Assembly (NCBI RefSeq): GCF_000221045.1
Contig: NC_015856.1
Span: 3,182,542 to 3,246,541 of the forward strand
DNA from: Collimonas fungivorans Ter331
GTDB taxonomy: Bacteria > Pseudomonadota > Gammaproteobacteria > Burkholderiales > Burkholderiaceae_D
Direction of reading: 5' to 3'
Length of the DNA: 64,000 nt
Positions within the stretch are counted from its first letter, which is position 1. Each line of letters opens with the position of its first letter. The notes under the pieces were generated by a model. That model did not search any database. It saw nothing but the letters and a program-made list of their open reading frames with translations, and had not been told where the DNA came from. A program made the position numbers and the translations under genes. Shown piece by piece: positions 32,411 through 37,606 of this stretch.

Positions 32411-35400
32411 TTACCAGTTGTACCGTGCGCCCACGGCAAGGCCCTGGTCCTGGCCGTGCGCTGCAATGTCGCCGGTATAGTCGACCAGGAAAGCCCAGGC
32501 CCCGGCGTGGCTGGCCACCACTCCCAGGTTGAACTGGAGATGGTTGGGGCCGACGCTCGGTCCGCGCACTTCGAATGTCCCAGCCTCGGAAGCGTTGGCG
32601 AAGCGATTCGTAAAATATCCCTCGCGGTTGCCGAATGCACGTTGCACCAGGACCCGCGCATGCGGGGTCCAGCTGGTGGGACTGGCCGATTCTTTCGACG
32701 CCAGGGTGAAGGTCTTGCCCAGCTGCAACCCGGCGCCGATCCGGGTGTCGGTCACCTGGTCGGCATGCACCGACAATGCGATAGCCGGATCCGTGGCCTG
32801 GTCGCGGAAATCGACGCCCGGCAGGCGCACCACATCAACAGCCGGCAGGATCGGCTGCCACACCCATCCTCGCTGGTCTTGTATGGTCCAGCCATGCTCC
32901 ACATGCAGCGACAAGGCGTTGCCGGTATTGCGCGCCTGGGCTTGTGCAGAAAAAGGCAGCCGCGACATGCTCAAGTCAACCGAGCGTGTGGCGGTGCTCG
33001 ACAGATGCGTCGCTCCGGCCGAGGCATCCAGGTAATGGCGCTCGGTTGCGTAGCGCAGGTAAAGGCGGCCGTCGATGGCGTTGGTTTGTCCGCGGTAGCC
33101 GTTGCCGACGCCGTTCACCGACAGCGTGCCGTAACCGAGCGAGCCGCCCCAGGTCAGGCGTTCGCCGGCGCGCCGGTCCAGGCCCAGCACCAGTCCTGAG
33201 CTGTCTTGTCGCCAGGCCGACATCTGGTCCTGTCCGCTCAGGTGTCCGTAGTGGCCGAACACGCGGCCCCAAAGATTGGTGTCGCTGGCTGGAGCATCCG
33301 GTTTCGCAGCTGGGTCGTCGCTGCCGACCAGGTAGCTGAGCATGCCGGAGGCGTCGACAGCATGGCCAGGTGCGCCCGAATTGAGCGGCATCGCTGCGGC
33401 GATGGCAGCCGTGCCCTGCCGTTCGGCGGCGCGGTCGGTGGAACGCAAGTGCTGGGTCAGGGCCGCGCTGAAGTCGTTGATCAGATACAGCGAGGCGGTC
33501 CGCTGGGCGGCATAACCGGCGCCCTCGATCTGTTGCCGGGCCTGCGCCGCCTGGGCGTTGGTGGAGAACTGCAGCGCACCCAGCAGCGGCGCCAGCGCCG
33601 AGCCGCTTTGCTGGGAAGCAGAGCTGAGGGCGCTGCCTAGGCCGCAGCCTGCACGGTTGCAGAATGCGGACTTGCCGAGAAACGCTTCGTCGGCGCTGAG
33701 TGAAATGCTGTCATTCTTCTGGGTCACGTGGAAACTGATCACGGAATCGTCGAAAGGATGAAAGGCGTCCGTGGCGGGATTGACATCGTAGCCGGCGACC
33801 GGCTGGCCTTGCGCATCGGCGCGCACCAGGTGCGCGAAGCGGTTGACCACGATGTTCACATTGGCGGGAGCCAGGCCTTTCTTTTCCGCCTCCTGCAGCT
33901 GTGCCTGGAAGCCGGAAGAATAGCCGACCAAAGCGTACGATTGAGCCGTGTGATAAAAGCCGGGAGTCATATGCAGGGCAAGTTGCGCCGTATTGGAACG
34001 GATACTCAGCGCACTCATGGAGGTATAGCTACCGCCATTGTAAAGACCGAATCGCAACAAGGCCGGCTGCCCGGCCTGGCCAGGCGCAATATCGAAGGCC
34101 AGCGCCGAATAGTCATTCAATCGCGGATTGCCGCTCCAGTCGATCCCCTTTCCGGTCGGATGCAGGACGGCGCGATCCATGAAATTCATGCGCGCCCACA
34201 GCTGAGACTCGCCGAGCTGGCCTTCACCTTCAAGGGCGCTGCGCCTGTAAAATGTGTTGACCGGAATGTCAAGGATGCCGCCTCGCAGATGCAAGGCGCT
34301 GTCCTGCATGACCAGCGCATCCATAGCGGTATGGATTCCCTTGGGCAGGGTCCATTGGGAGTTTACCAAGGTCATGAAACCAAAAGAATCGCCGGTCGAT
34401 ATGCCCGAAGTGTCGATCAGCGGCGTCGCGCTATATTTTACGAAGGCCCGGATTGCCTTGTTGTAGTCTGAATTCGGATCGGCGCGCTGGCTCTTGGCTT
34501 CATCGGGATCATATTGGCTGGGGTCGTTGTAGACGGCGTTCAAGCCCTGCGTGAGCGCCTTGACCCGGTCGGCCGGACTCATTGCGTTGTATATGCTCCG
34601 TTCCTGGTCAACCAGGTTGATCAGATAGGGCTCGCCGCTCAGGACGGGGGCAGATCCCTTGGGTAAATAGGCTCCCAGCAGATTCCAGTTGGTCAGCCAG
34701 CTGACCAGCGTCGTATCTATCTTTTTAGCGGCAGGGTCATACTTGTTAGCGTAGTTCGGATTGATATTGCCAGACAATGCCTGGCCCGTTATGGTTACAG
34801 AGTCCACGGTCGTTTCGGGCGTGCGCTGGGTGACGAAGCCGGTGTTGTAGACATCGTCCTTGGGATAGGCCTTGTACTGTTTCGGGTTGGCGCAGTCCGG
34901 GTGGCACCAGAATACGGATGGCGTTTTGCCGGCGGCCGGATCGAACAGCCTGGCATAGGCATTGCCGTGGTCGCTGAAGGCATCGTCCAGCAACTGGGCG
35001 TCGGTGGCGGCAAGGTTGCCATTGGCGATCGCTTTCAGAAAATACTGGTAGAAAGAAGTGTTCCGGCTGGAATCCAGATAGCTATCGTGACCGCCGGTCA
35101 TGCCATGGATGCCAAGAAAGTGGCCGCTGTTGATATCGCCAGGATTCGGCTGGTCGAGGTTCGAAAAGGCGCGCACCGCGCCGCCCGCAAACATCATGGT
35201 GCAGGCCGAGATGCAGTAGCCGGAGAAGACCGTCTTCAGGCCCTGGCGCCGCGCCAGGTCGCCAACATCGTAACCGCCGGTTACGGAGCCGCCGTTCGAA
35301 TTGCGCATCACCAGCGTATCGATGACCCGTCCCTGGGCGCGCAGCCGGGCCAGGTAGTCCGCCAGCACGTAGCCATCCGAAAACACCACGTCGCCCGACA

Positions 35401-35506
35401 GGAACACCTGGTTCCCATGCACATGCATGTCCATCGCATACGCATGGTGTACGCCCGCCTCCATGCCCAGCGCCCCTAAAATGGCCAGCAACAGCTTGTA
35501 TTTCAT
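32411..35506 (-). CDS. Autotransporter with an N-terminal ClpP/crotonase-like serine-protease domain
   Basis: The 1031-residue protein starts MKYKLLLAILGALGMEAG with a Sec signal ending near AYA. Residues about 30-140 carry the periplasmic ClpP-fold pattern (COG3904-like): VMRNSNGGSV (oxyanion-type Gly pair), a probable nucleophile Ser100 in GYCISACTMMFAGG, and His134 in FLGIHG. A long passenger of unknown fold follows (140-740), with Cys pairs (WCHPDC, FCNRAGCG). The last 280 residues are an autotransporter beta-barrel (NLWGRVFGHYG ... VLGLDRRAGERLTWGGSLGYG) ending in an aromatic residue (GARYNW). It is predicted to display or release a protease-like domain at the cell surface. Confidence 0.82.
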   Translation of the reverse strand: MKYKLLLAILGALGMEAGVHHAYAMDMHVHGNQVFLSGDVVFSDGYVLADYLARLRAQGRVIDTLVMRNSNGGSVTGGYDVGDLARRQGLKTVFSGYCISACTMMFAGGAVRAFSNLDQPNPGDINSGHFLGIHGMTGGHDSYLDSSRNTSFYQYFLKAIANGNLAATDAQLLDDAFSDHGNAYARLFDPAAGKTPSVFWCHPDCANPKQYKAYPKDDVYNTGFVTQRTPETTVDSVTITGQALSGNINPNYANKYDPAAKKIDTTLVSWLTNWNLLGAYLPKGSAPVLSGEPYLINLVDQERSIYNAMSPADRVKALTQGLNAVYNDPSQYDPDEAKSQRADPNSDYNKAIRAFVKYSATPLIDTSGISTGDSFGFMTLVNSQWTLPKGIHTAMDALVMQDSALHLRGGILDIPVNTFYRRSALEGEGQLGESQLWARMNFMDRAVLHPTGKGIDWSGNPRLNDYSALAFDIAPGQAGQPALLRFGLYNGGSYTSMSALSIRSNTAQLALHMTPGFYHTAQSYALVGYSSGFQAQLQEAEKKGLAPANVNIVVNRFAHLVRADAQGQPVAGYDVNPATDAFHPFDDSVISFHVTQKNDSISLSADEAFLGKSAFCNRAGCGLGSALSSASQQSGSALAPLLGALQFSTNAQAAQARQQIEGAGYAAQRTASLYLINDFSAALTQHLRSTDRAAERQGTAAIAAAMPLNSGAPGHAVDASGMLSYLVGSDDPAAKPDAPASDTNLWGRVFGHYGHLSGQDQMSAWRQDSSGLVLGLDRRAGERLTWGGSLGYGTLSVNGVGNGYRGQTNAIDGRLYLRYATERHYLDASAGATHLSSTATRSVDLSMSRLPFSAQAQARNTGNALSLHVEHGWTIQDQRGWVWQPILPAVDVVRLPGVDFRDQATDPAIALSVHADQVTDTRIGAGLQLGKTFTLASKESASPTSWTPHARVLVQRAFGNREGYFTNRFANASEAGTFEVRGPSVGPNHLQFNLGVVASHAGAWAFLVDYTGDIAAHGQDQGLAVGARYNW

Positions 35507-35842: not shown

Positions 35843-37606
35843 ATGACAGAACACATCGAATTGAAAGGCAGCCTGGCAGCCGCCACGCTCGCCACCCTAT
35901 TTCTTGTCGCCGGCTGCGGTGACGGCAGCAATACCGGCGCCGACGCCCTGGCAAAACGAAACCAGAACGCGGATGCGGTCAAGCCGCCGGCCCAGAGTTC
36001 GGCGACTACCGCCGCCGTCTCCGGCAAGATCACCTATGACTTTGTGCCCGCGGTCGCCAGCAAGGACCAGCAAGGGCGCTGGCAAGCCAAGCTCGACTAC
36101 GCAAAAACGGTACAAAAACCGGCCCGCAATGTCGTGGTCGAACTGATCGACGACAAGACAGGCAAGGTATTGCTGTCGGCGGAAACCGACGCCCAGGGTG
36201 GCTATGCGTTCCAGGCGCCGCTCAATACCGCCGTCCGCGTGCGGGCAAAAGCGCAGATGCTGCGCACAGGCAGCGCAGGACCAAGCTGGAATTTCGCGGT
36301 TCGCGACCACTCGTCGGCAGGCTACGGCGTATCGACCAACGGCGCCGCTCTGTTCGCCATGGAAAGCGCCTCCTTCAACAGCGGCAAGCAAGCCAGCATC
36401 CATGACCTGAACGCTGCTTCCGGATGGGACGCCACGAAATCGACCTATGCCACATCCCGCTCGGCCGGACCGTTCGCAATTCTCGACACGGTCTACAACG
36501 CCAGCCATAAAGTGCTGGAAGCCGATAAAAATCTCGCGTTCCCGCCACTTAACGTCTTCTGGAGCCCGGGCGACACGGACGGCACTTATTTCGGCAGCGA
36601 GAGCGGCAAATCCAATTCCAGAGGCTTGCATATCCTCGGCCAGGCAGACGTCGATACCGACGAATACGATGCCGGCGTGATTGCCCATGAGTGGGGACAC
36701 TACTTCCAGGCCAGTTTCTCTCGCGACGACAGCACTGGCGGCAGCCACGGACAGGGAGACTTGCTCGACATGCGCCTGGCGTTCAGCGAAGGCTGGGGAA
36801 ATTCGTTTTCCAGCATGGCGCGCAATGATCCGATGTACGTCGACACCAATGGAAAGAGCCAAGGCAAACGCGCGGTAGTTTTCAAGGTCGACGATATTCC
36901 GGCGGACGATCCGAAAGCCTGGTTCAGCGAAACAGCGGTACAGTCTGTGCTGTATCGCCTGCACCAGTCGCCGGACATCGGCTTCGGCCCTATCTACCAG
37001 GCCATGGCAGCGCAGAAGACATCACCGGCTTTCACCAGCCTGTTTTCATTCGCAGCCGCGCTGCGCGGAAAAATCAATGCGGCCGGCCAGGCCACGCTGG
37101 ATAGCCTGCTGACCGAGGTCAATACGATAAACAAGGACAATCTAGACATGTTCGGTTCCAAACAGGCGAGCCTTCCAGCATCCATCATTGCTGCCAACAA
37201 GGATTTTGTGCTGCCGGTCTACACGCTTCTTGATGTCGGTTTGCAGACCACGGCCCAAACGGCCGGCAAGGAAAGCACAGCATGCAACACGACTGCATAC
37301 GACGCGGGCAACAATTACAATAAGCTCGGCGTATATCGCTATCTGCGTTTCGGCATCGCGGAAAAAGGCAAATACCGGCTGCGTATCGTCCCCGACCAGG
37401 GCCTGGCGCCTTACCTCCAGCTTTATAGCAAGGGAACGGCACTGGCTGGCGACACCGTCAAAAATCAGCTCATTGAAGACCCGAATCATCCCGGCACTTA
37501 TTATGCGAACTACGATTTGCCGGTGCAAAATGACTACGTAGCCACACTGACCACCGTGGGCGATGCTCCAGGATGCTTTAAGCTCCTGCTCACCCAAGTC
37601 AAATGA
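35843..37606 (+). CDS. Exported lipoprotein with HEXXH zinc-metalloprotease motif
   Basis: The 587-residue protein has a signal ending in a lipobox (LFLVAGC), so it should be membrane-anchored outside the cytoplasm. A carboxypeptidase-regulatory/Ig-like region is likely at about 60-135 (VVVELIDDKTGKVLLSAETDAQGGYAF). The motif VIAHEWGHYFQ near residue 280 supplies two zinc-binding His and the catalytic Glu, and FSEGWGNSF about 40 residues later offers the third ligand Glu, as in gluzincin-type enzymes. Its C-terminal half resembles a pre-peptidase C-terminal domain (YLRFGIAEKGKYRLRI). Followed 14 bases later by an exported partner gene. Confidence 0.72.
   Translation: MTEHIELKGSLAAATLATLFLVAGCGDGSNTGADALAKRNQNADAVKPPAQSSATTAAVSGKITYDFVPAVASKDQQGRWQAKLDYAKTVQKPARNVVVELIDDKTGKVLLSAETDAQGGYAFQAPLNTAVRVRAKAQMLRTGSAGPSWNFAVRDHSSAGYGVSTNGAALFAMESASFNSGKQASIHDLNAASGWDATKSTYATSRSAGPFAILDTVYNASHKVLEADKNLAFPPLNVFWSPGDTDGTYFGSESGKSNSRGLHILGQADVDTDEYDAGVIAHEWGHYFQASFSRDDSTGGSHGQGDLLDMRLAFSEGWGNSFSSMARNDPMYVDTNGKSQGKRAVVFKVDDIPADDPKAWFSETAVQSVLYRLHQSPDIGFGPIYQAMAAQKTSPAFTSLFSFAAALRGKINAAGQATLDSLLTEVNTINKDNLDMFGSKQASLPASIIAANKDFVLPVYTLLDVGLQTTAQTAGKESTACNTTAYDAGNNYNKLGVYRYLRFGIAEKGKYRLRIVPDQGLAPYLQLYSKGTALAGDTVKNQLIEDPNHPGTYYANYDLPVQNDYVATLTTVGDAPGCFKLLLTQVK

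Follow-up and report, generated by a model that had tools for sequence, protein, structure and literature searches.

A probable enzyme autotransporter of Collimonas fungivorans Ter331 with a ClpP-like, mosaic head and a predicted protease role

The stretch of DNA analysed here, 64,000 nucleotides of Collimonas fungivorans Ter331 (NC_015856.1, positions 3,182,542 to 3,246,541 of the forward strand; hereafter the window), carries at 32411-35506 on the minus strand a gene whose product joins a ClpP-like N-terminal head to the C-terminal barrel of an autotransporter. We consider it reasonably probable that this protein is a type Va (classical) autotransporter with a ClpP-type (S14-like) serine hydrolase as its passenger, most likely a peptidase. 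The open reading frame is intact and encodes 1031 residues counted from the ATG, and an alternative in-frame GTG start would give a product of 1046 residues. An earlier note on this DNA had pointed to such a fusion, and the motifs that it quoted are present and correctly numbered (NSNGG at 69, CISAC at 98 with Ser100, and GIHG at 132 with His134). The C-terminal barrel also lies, as claimed, in the same polypeptide: PF03797 is the sole Pfam domain found in a scan of the window protein (residues 745-1011, E 2.2e-41), NCBIfam TIGR01414 agrees with this call, and PF03797 is present in all eight aligned copies of the fusion (the fusion rows).

Profile comparisons indicate that the N-terminal part of the protein, ~215 residues, shares ancestry with ClpP, its putative nucleophile and base being in register. 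A search of PDB sequences with the single head sequence reached ClpP at E 0.7, and head profiles reached it at E 0.0014 (23 rows) and 0.0018 (28 rows). The Pfam family CLP_protease matches 14 of the 23 head rows when E<=1 is allowed, the best at 5.3e-8, and five of the eight fusion rows within E<=0.5, the best at 6.1e-7, and the fusion ortholog of Janthinobacterium lividum, at 33.4 bits, passes the curated cut-off of 20.2. In hhalign comparisons, whose E-values are pairwise and hold for one comparison each, the 28-row head profile aligned with 13 bacterial ClpP rows at probability 96 and E 3.9e-9, and the fusion-only profile of eight rows aligned with ClpP at probability 94 and E 1.5e-7. The head matched 14 phage and bacterial S14 rows at probability 98.7 and E 3.9e-16, although 10 of the 14 had been fetched by similarity to head relatives, so that the set is only partly independent. 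The match to S49 (SppA) rows was weaker than that to ClpP (probability 67, E 5.2e-5). In the comparisons of the 28-row profile with ClpP and of the head with the S14 set, NSNGG, Ser100 and His134 coincided with the ClpP motifs. The idea that a classical autotransporter carries a ClpP-type head is thus supported by the profile-profile match with Ser and His in register, by the Pfam hit in an ortholog and by the recurrence of the fusion as a family.

Conservation was assessed in an alignment of 43 rows of head relatives, from which duplicates, fragments and near-copies were dropped (L001, L019, L016, L020, L025, L056 and L004) and which includes some but not all of the relatives known from the order search described below. 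GG, C98 and C102 occur in 43 of 43 rows, and Ser100 and His134 in 42 each, Ser and His being missing in one and the same row. In the head relative L039 Ser and His are both Ala, and this protein is likely a dead enzyme. C-x-S-x-C and the His are kept in all 12 fusion heads examined, with a Ser-His spacing of 27-38 residues, and Ser, His and GG are invariant in a joint alignment of 24 rows that includes phage ClpP relatives; the second Cys is absent in 10 of its 13 viral-contig rows. Selection on the gene is purifying: of the eight pairs for which a ratio of nonsynonymous to synonymous substitution rates (dN/dS) could be computed over the head, seven give 0.05-0.18 and the eighth, the window copy against the diverged copy of Collimonas G007, gives 0.40. 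With this conservation and the orthologs described below, the arrangement is no product of chance. Between the window protein and that of Dyella tabacisoli, the head is the best-conserved part (69% identity, against 47% for the barrel). These identity and dN/dS values, like the trees and mosaic analyses below, use only columns present in the window protein, insertions of other copies being dropped.

The remaining architecture was read from the sequence and from an AlphaFold2 model of the full-length protein built on an 11-row alignment. Residues 1-24 likely form a signal peptide, with a short basic start, a hydrophobic core and A-x-A ahead of MDMH recognised by eye. The model has a mean predicted local distance difference test score (pLDDT) of 54 and is good only in the stalk and fair in part of the barrel. 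According to this model the middle region is not featureless, a helical segment being followed by a strand-rich stalk, which we infer to be a beta-helix. The features of the gene and of its immediate 3' side are as follows.

35435..35506, minus strand: putative signal peptide, residues 1-24 (MKYKLLLAILGALGMEAGVHHAYA), read by eye from the sequence
34787..35434, minus strand: ClpP-like head, residues 25-240, from hhalign against the ClpP and S14 sets and Pfam CLP_protease in head rows
35207..35209, minus strand: Ser100, putative nucleophile, from conservation and alignment with the ClpP Ser
35105..35107, minus strand: His134, putative general base, from conservation and alignment with the ClpP His
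35201..35215, minus strand: C98-x-S100-x-C102, Cys pair flanking the nucleophile, neither Cys missing from any of the 43 aligned rows
34886..35227, minus strand: residues 94-207, segment with an apparent exchange between lineages in the G004 copy, from the mosaic scan, identity tables and trees
34412..34786, minus strand: helical segment, residues 241-365, with AlphaFold2 helices at 265-358 and 10-residue blocks of pLDDT 30-72
33662..34411, minus strand: strand-rich stalk, residues 366-615, with AlphaFold2 strands at 377-605 and the 10-residue blocks of 381-610 at pLDDT 60-91
33287..33661, minus strand: alpha-helical linker, residues 616-740, with the C616/C621 pair, from AlphaFold2 helices at 622-726 and the Cys positions
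32414..33286, minus strand: autotransporter beta-barrel, residues 741-1031, last residue Trp, from PF03797 and TIGR01414
32298..32380, minus strand: Proteo-phage-1 RNA (RF03044), directly 3' of the gene and not part of the protein, from cmscan (55.9 bits, gathering threshold 42)

The trees of the head and of the linker plus barrel conflict. In the linker plus barrel tree, Collimonas and Janthinobacterium stand apart from Dyella and Luteibacter (100/100), and in the head tree the copy of Collimonas G004 clusters with Luteibacter (100/99); by these trees head and barrel have different histories. Identity tables, which exclude gaps, place the change within the head. For residues 25-110, identity of the G004 copy is 86-88% to three close Collimonas copies and 76-77% to Luteibacter; over residues 111-215 the values are 48-50% and 61-64%, and over residues 241-365 they are 82-87% versus 37-38%. 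The window copy itself is 70-71% identical to Dyella over residues 111-215. A scan of informative sites delimits the foreign stretch of the G004 copy as residues 94-207, with 27 of 32 Luteibacter-like sites inside it, 19 of 183 outside and 0 of 200 shuffles reaching this; these numbers are soft, in that gaps count as a state (so that a single deletion contributes several sites), rate variation is not taken into account in the shuffles and the pair was picked after the alignment was viewed. From this, the active-site half of the head appears to have passed between soil bacteria that are only distantly related, joining a stalk and barrel already present in the recipient. Since this segment both varies by type and is exchanged, it may set specificity or the contact with a partner. 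In ClpP the segment past the nucleophile holds the handle. The earlier note had assigned substrate recognition to the long middle region, for which we find no support, the type-variable and exchanged segment lying in the head.

The fusion, which the earlier note proposed to seek in other genomes, recurs in Collimonas, Janthinobacterium, Dyella and Luteibacter and in the genomes G540 and G956. All genome-search counts are lower bounds, the best 7, 10 or 2-3 candidates per genome having been scored with profiles and the best 150 with the RNA model. Among 100 relatives searched, the full-length fusion is found in at least 5 of 15 Collimonas genomes, including that of the window, and the four same-genus orthologs share 57-95% identity with the window protein. 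It is full-length in six of ten named loci, from a metagenome-assembled genome of Collimonas fungivorans, D. tabacisoli, D. silvatica, two Luteibacter and J. lividum; the first of these (L049) is the G003 copy and not an additional carrier. In the family of D. tabacisoli at least 5 of 233 genomes have a fusion match at E<=1e-60, four of them being the two Dyella and two Luteibacter already named and the fifth the diverged G540. At E<=1e-25, at least 3 of 369 genomes match in a sample of the class (the window's own, G956 and G885) and at least 2 of 299 in a sample of the phylum (the window's own and G956). Head and barrel are both present in G956, and no head was found in G885 within the 887 of 979 residues examined.

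Head matches are commoner, being found in at least 47 of 399 genomes of the order (including the window's own fusion) and in at least 52 of 299 genomes of the phylum (including the window's own fusion and G956). Among the matches listed for the phylum, only these two lie in frames of at least 1000 residues, the next longest having 531; among those listed for the order only the window's own does, the next longest having 839 (G122). On these counts the usual form of the head is a smaller protein and the autotransporter form is rare. The stand-alone relatives, judged by eye, often have a signal-like start. Three of the head loci, L055, L057 and L058 (Hylemonella, Variovorax and Rhodoferax), combine a ClpP-like head with a C-terminal rhodanese domain. 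The head had no match in 72,556 plasmid records, and scans of viral contigs with close head alignments found none; other scans of viral contigs did find relatives, including phage ClpP-like proteins. A pattern scan returned four viral loci, one of which was not taken as a relative (weak, E 0.007).

Several known systems share parts of this arrangement. The subtilisin-like autotransporters (NalP, SphB1 and Ssp; Group 15 in the available part of PMC9289746) have, as is predicted for the Collimonas protein, an N-terminal serine-protease head, a beta-helix and a barrel, and some of them process other surface proteins. Their S8 head, however, has ~400 residues, against ~215 in the ClpP-type head of the Collimonas protein, in which Pfam gave no Peptidase_S8 match at E<=1. 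The SPATEs and IgA proteases (Cluster A in the same part of PMC9289746) carry, again as predicted for the Collimonas protein, a protease subdomain on a stalk with a type Va barrel. Their head has the chymotrypsin fold, unlike that of the Collimonas protein, where no Pfam match to a chymotrypsin-like S6 head was found at E<=1. With ClpP (S14) the Collimonas head shares the GG motif and a Ser and a His in register. ClpP is cytoplasmic and ring-forming; the Collimonas head differs in being putatively secreted and tethered, in its C-x-S-x-C motif and in having no matched Asp. The same type of head is found in the stand-alone C-x-S-A-C ClpP-like proteins, which we take to be COG3904-like and which mostly occupy frames too short for a barrel. 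The phage ClpP-like or head-maturation proteases of viral contigs share Ser, His and GG and mostly lack the second Cys.

In the available part of PMC9289746, autotransporter enzymes are sorted into chymotrypsin-like proteases, subtilisin-like proteases and GDSL esterases, and 'clp' and 'crotonase' do not occur in the main text of that review or of PMC6555100 as far as these sources were accessible. A 2008 survey (PMC2605481, in part) reports an extra domain in 3 of 121 Clp homologues, all three NfeD-like. Our search of the literature on autotransporters (also in Collimonas), on secreted ClpP-like proteins and on S14, S49 and COG3904, in which long result lists were only partly covered, found no report of the fusion. 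The suggestion of a new class therefore seems reasonable for the ground covered by the accessible parts of the two autotransporter reviews and the Clp survey, because the reviews lack both terms and Clp proteases are almost always single-domain.

If the protein works as a peptidase outside the cell, the signal peptide would take it to the periplasm, the barrel would insert and the passenger would pass out through it, the close Cys pairs making loops small enough for passage. The stalk would then fold outside and keep the head away from the cell, where Ser100, activated by His134, would cleave peptide (or ester) bonds of outside substrates, either feeding the cell or processing surface proteins of its own cell or of neighbours. 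One head per barrel would act without the ClpP ring and without an unfoldase. A partnership with a ring and an AAA+ unfoldase is unlikely for a barrel-tethered head, and short or unfolded peptides would accordingly be the likelier substrates. The six Cys of the window protein (98/102, 201/205 and 616/621) agree with such a route: in all ten full-length copies examined, Cys occur only as close pairs, 4 or 5 apart, and the middle pair is missing in three of the ten. In the available part of PMC9769942, short-spaced Cys pairs are tolerated in autotransporter translocation, and few autotransporters carry a single Cys pair, the commonest spacing being 11 residues. The close-pair pattern fits export of the head but is no proof of it.

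Several observations weigh against a ClpP-type peptidase. ClpP itself requires a ring, and no measured activity is known to us for the stand-alone relatives. By itself the window head scores 12.4 bits (E 0.14) against Pfam CLP_protease, below the cut-off of 20.2, and in the fusion-only comparison with ClpP the His is out of register. The span aligned with ClpP and S14 ends soon past the His, leaving the C-terminal half of the head unaligned. The ClpP Asp has no visible counterpart, no acid being conserved there across the 43 rows of the head family; D189 is invariant in the eight fusion rows and not in the wider family. AlphaFold2 modelled the head poorly (residues 95-237 at pLDDT <50), and the three Cys pairs exceed the single pair described in the available part of PMC9769942. 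Within Collimonas, moreover, conservation is lower in the head than in the barrel (68% versus 85% for G004, and 56% versus 73% for G007), which we attribute to the exchange of the head segment.

Some of these points also bear on other readings. There is a minor chance that the protein is an adhesin whose head, a ClpP-fold module for binding or adhesion, keeps its residues for structure. The head has no conserved third catalytic residue, and C98 and C102 are at least as constant as Ser100 (43 versus 42 of 43), so that the motif could be structural; in addition, many autotransporters are adhesins according to the available part of PMC6555100. However, the sole row without Ser also lacks His, as expected of a catalytic pair, and the invariance of Ser and His extends through the 24-row alignment to phage ClpP relatives. 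ClpP and crotonases share a fold, and this common fold, together with the unaligned C-terminal half, would agree with a head that hydrolyses non-peptide bonds (ester, thioester or lipid) as crotonase-fold relatives do. GDSL esterases, in the accessible part of PMC9289746, are moreover another enzyme class among autotransporters. We regard this as unlikely, since Ser and His stand at the ClpP protease positions and S49 was the weaker match among the ClpP, S14 and S49 profiles compared. It is quite improbable that the head acts unexported in the periplasm with the barrel merely anchoring it. The signal-like starts of stand-alone relatives, inferred by eye, would make those proteins periplasmic or secreted, and the four head Cys could bond before export; but the confinement of Cys to pairs 4-5 apart in the ten full-length copies and the strand-rich stalk that separates head from barrel in the AlphaFold2 model count against this reading.

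The exported ClpP-type peptidase thus remains our preferred reading, and it can be carried further, though only tentatively. In this doubtful extension the protein would represent a new class of surface protease with a tethered, ring-free ClpP-fold head, the active-site half would be a swappable specificity cassette exchanged among Collimonas, Janthinobacterium, Luteibacter and Dyella, each keeping its own barrel, and the Cys pair astride the nucleophile would be a possible redox switch outside the cell.

The surroundings of the gene include phage-type elements. Proteo-phage-1 RNA lies 3' of the gene on its strand in three Collimonas, and it occurs once each in at least 4 of 15 Collimonas genomes, always at this site, G008 being without the gene. 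In Collimonas G007, isrK and C4 RNAs, which are linked to prophages, lie 3' of the gene (L062 7661-7843), and in Collimonas G004 it is followed by baseplate, endolysin and Rz-like genes (L061 3827-7385). A phage-type RNA or phage gene is thus found just 3' of the gene in all five Collimonas carriers, at three different sites. At the Dyella, Luteibacter and Janthinobacterium loci the search, which covered RNAs but not phage genes, yielded no such RNA; PHROGs were applied to the head rows and the Collimonas neighbours only. These associations hint at phage-borne movement of the gene. G008 was considered as an empty insertion site and rejected, as its gap holds a stretch of 35 bases, 26 of them identical, that resembles the gene's 3' end and spans the stop codon, with a score reached by 7 of 1000 shuffles. 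On this modest evidence of a gene-like remnant, loss fits better than insertion.

A divergent gene at 35843-37606 (plus strand) of the window encodes a protein resembling a lipoprotein, with HEWGH and, further on, an E-G-W motif, likely a metallopeptidase by these motifs, for which no Pfam hit above the cut-off was found. It is present in at least 9 of 15 Collimonas genomes and lies near the autotransporter gene in three. Elsewhere the gene adjoins an S8 peptidase in Dyella (L050 9171-11234 in D. tabacisoli, by Pfam; L054 7055-9124 in D. silvatica, a near-copy by eye) and an S9 peptidase in Luteibacter (L052 9053-11512 in L. anthropi, by Pfam; L069 5412-7874, with a look-alike start). In several genomes a TonB receptor is near the gene besides the secreted peptidase. 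We rejected the peptidase and TonB receptor neighbours as a functional unit: receptors number 23-74 per genome in the nine genomes counted, the gene sits elsewhere in Collimonas G004 and G007 with the lipoprotein unlinked to it, and in G008 the neighbourhood is preserved although the gene is absent.

In the accessible part of PMC4690342, some of these soil bacteria (Collimonas) feed on fungi, and the Collimonas strains are exoprotease-positive, the term 'autotransport' being unused there. An 'outer membrane autotransporter barrel domain protein' is among the regulated Collimonas genes in the available part of PMC12542777, and it may or may not be the present protein. Taken together, the protein is probably an enzyme autotransporter with a mosaic head and a protease type lacking precedent in the literature searched, its protease role being predicted. 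If this is true, the autotransporter secretion route would have a third class of protease, and the protein would allow one to ask directly whether the ClpP fold needs a ring in order to cut. An active-site half that moves between lineages would point to selection on what the head cuts.

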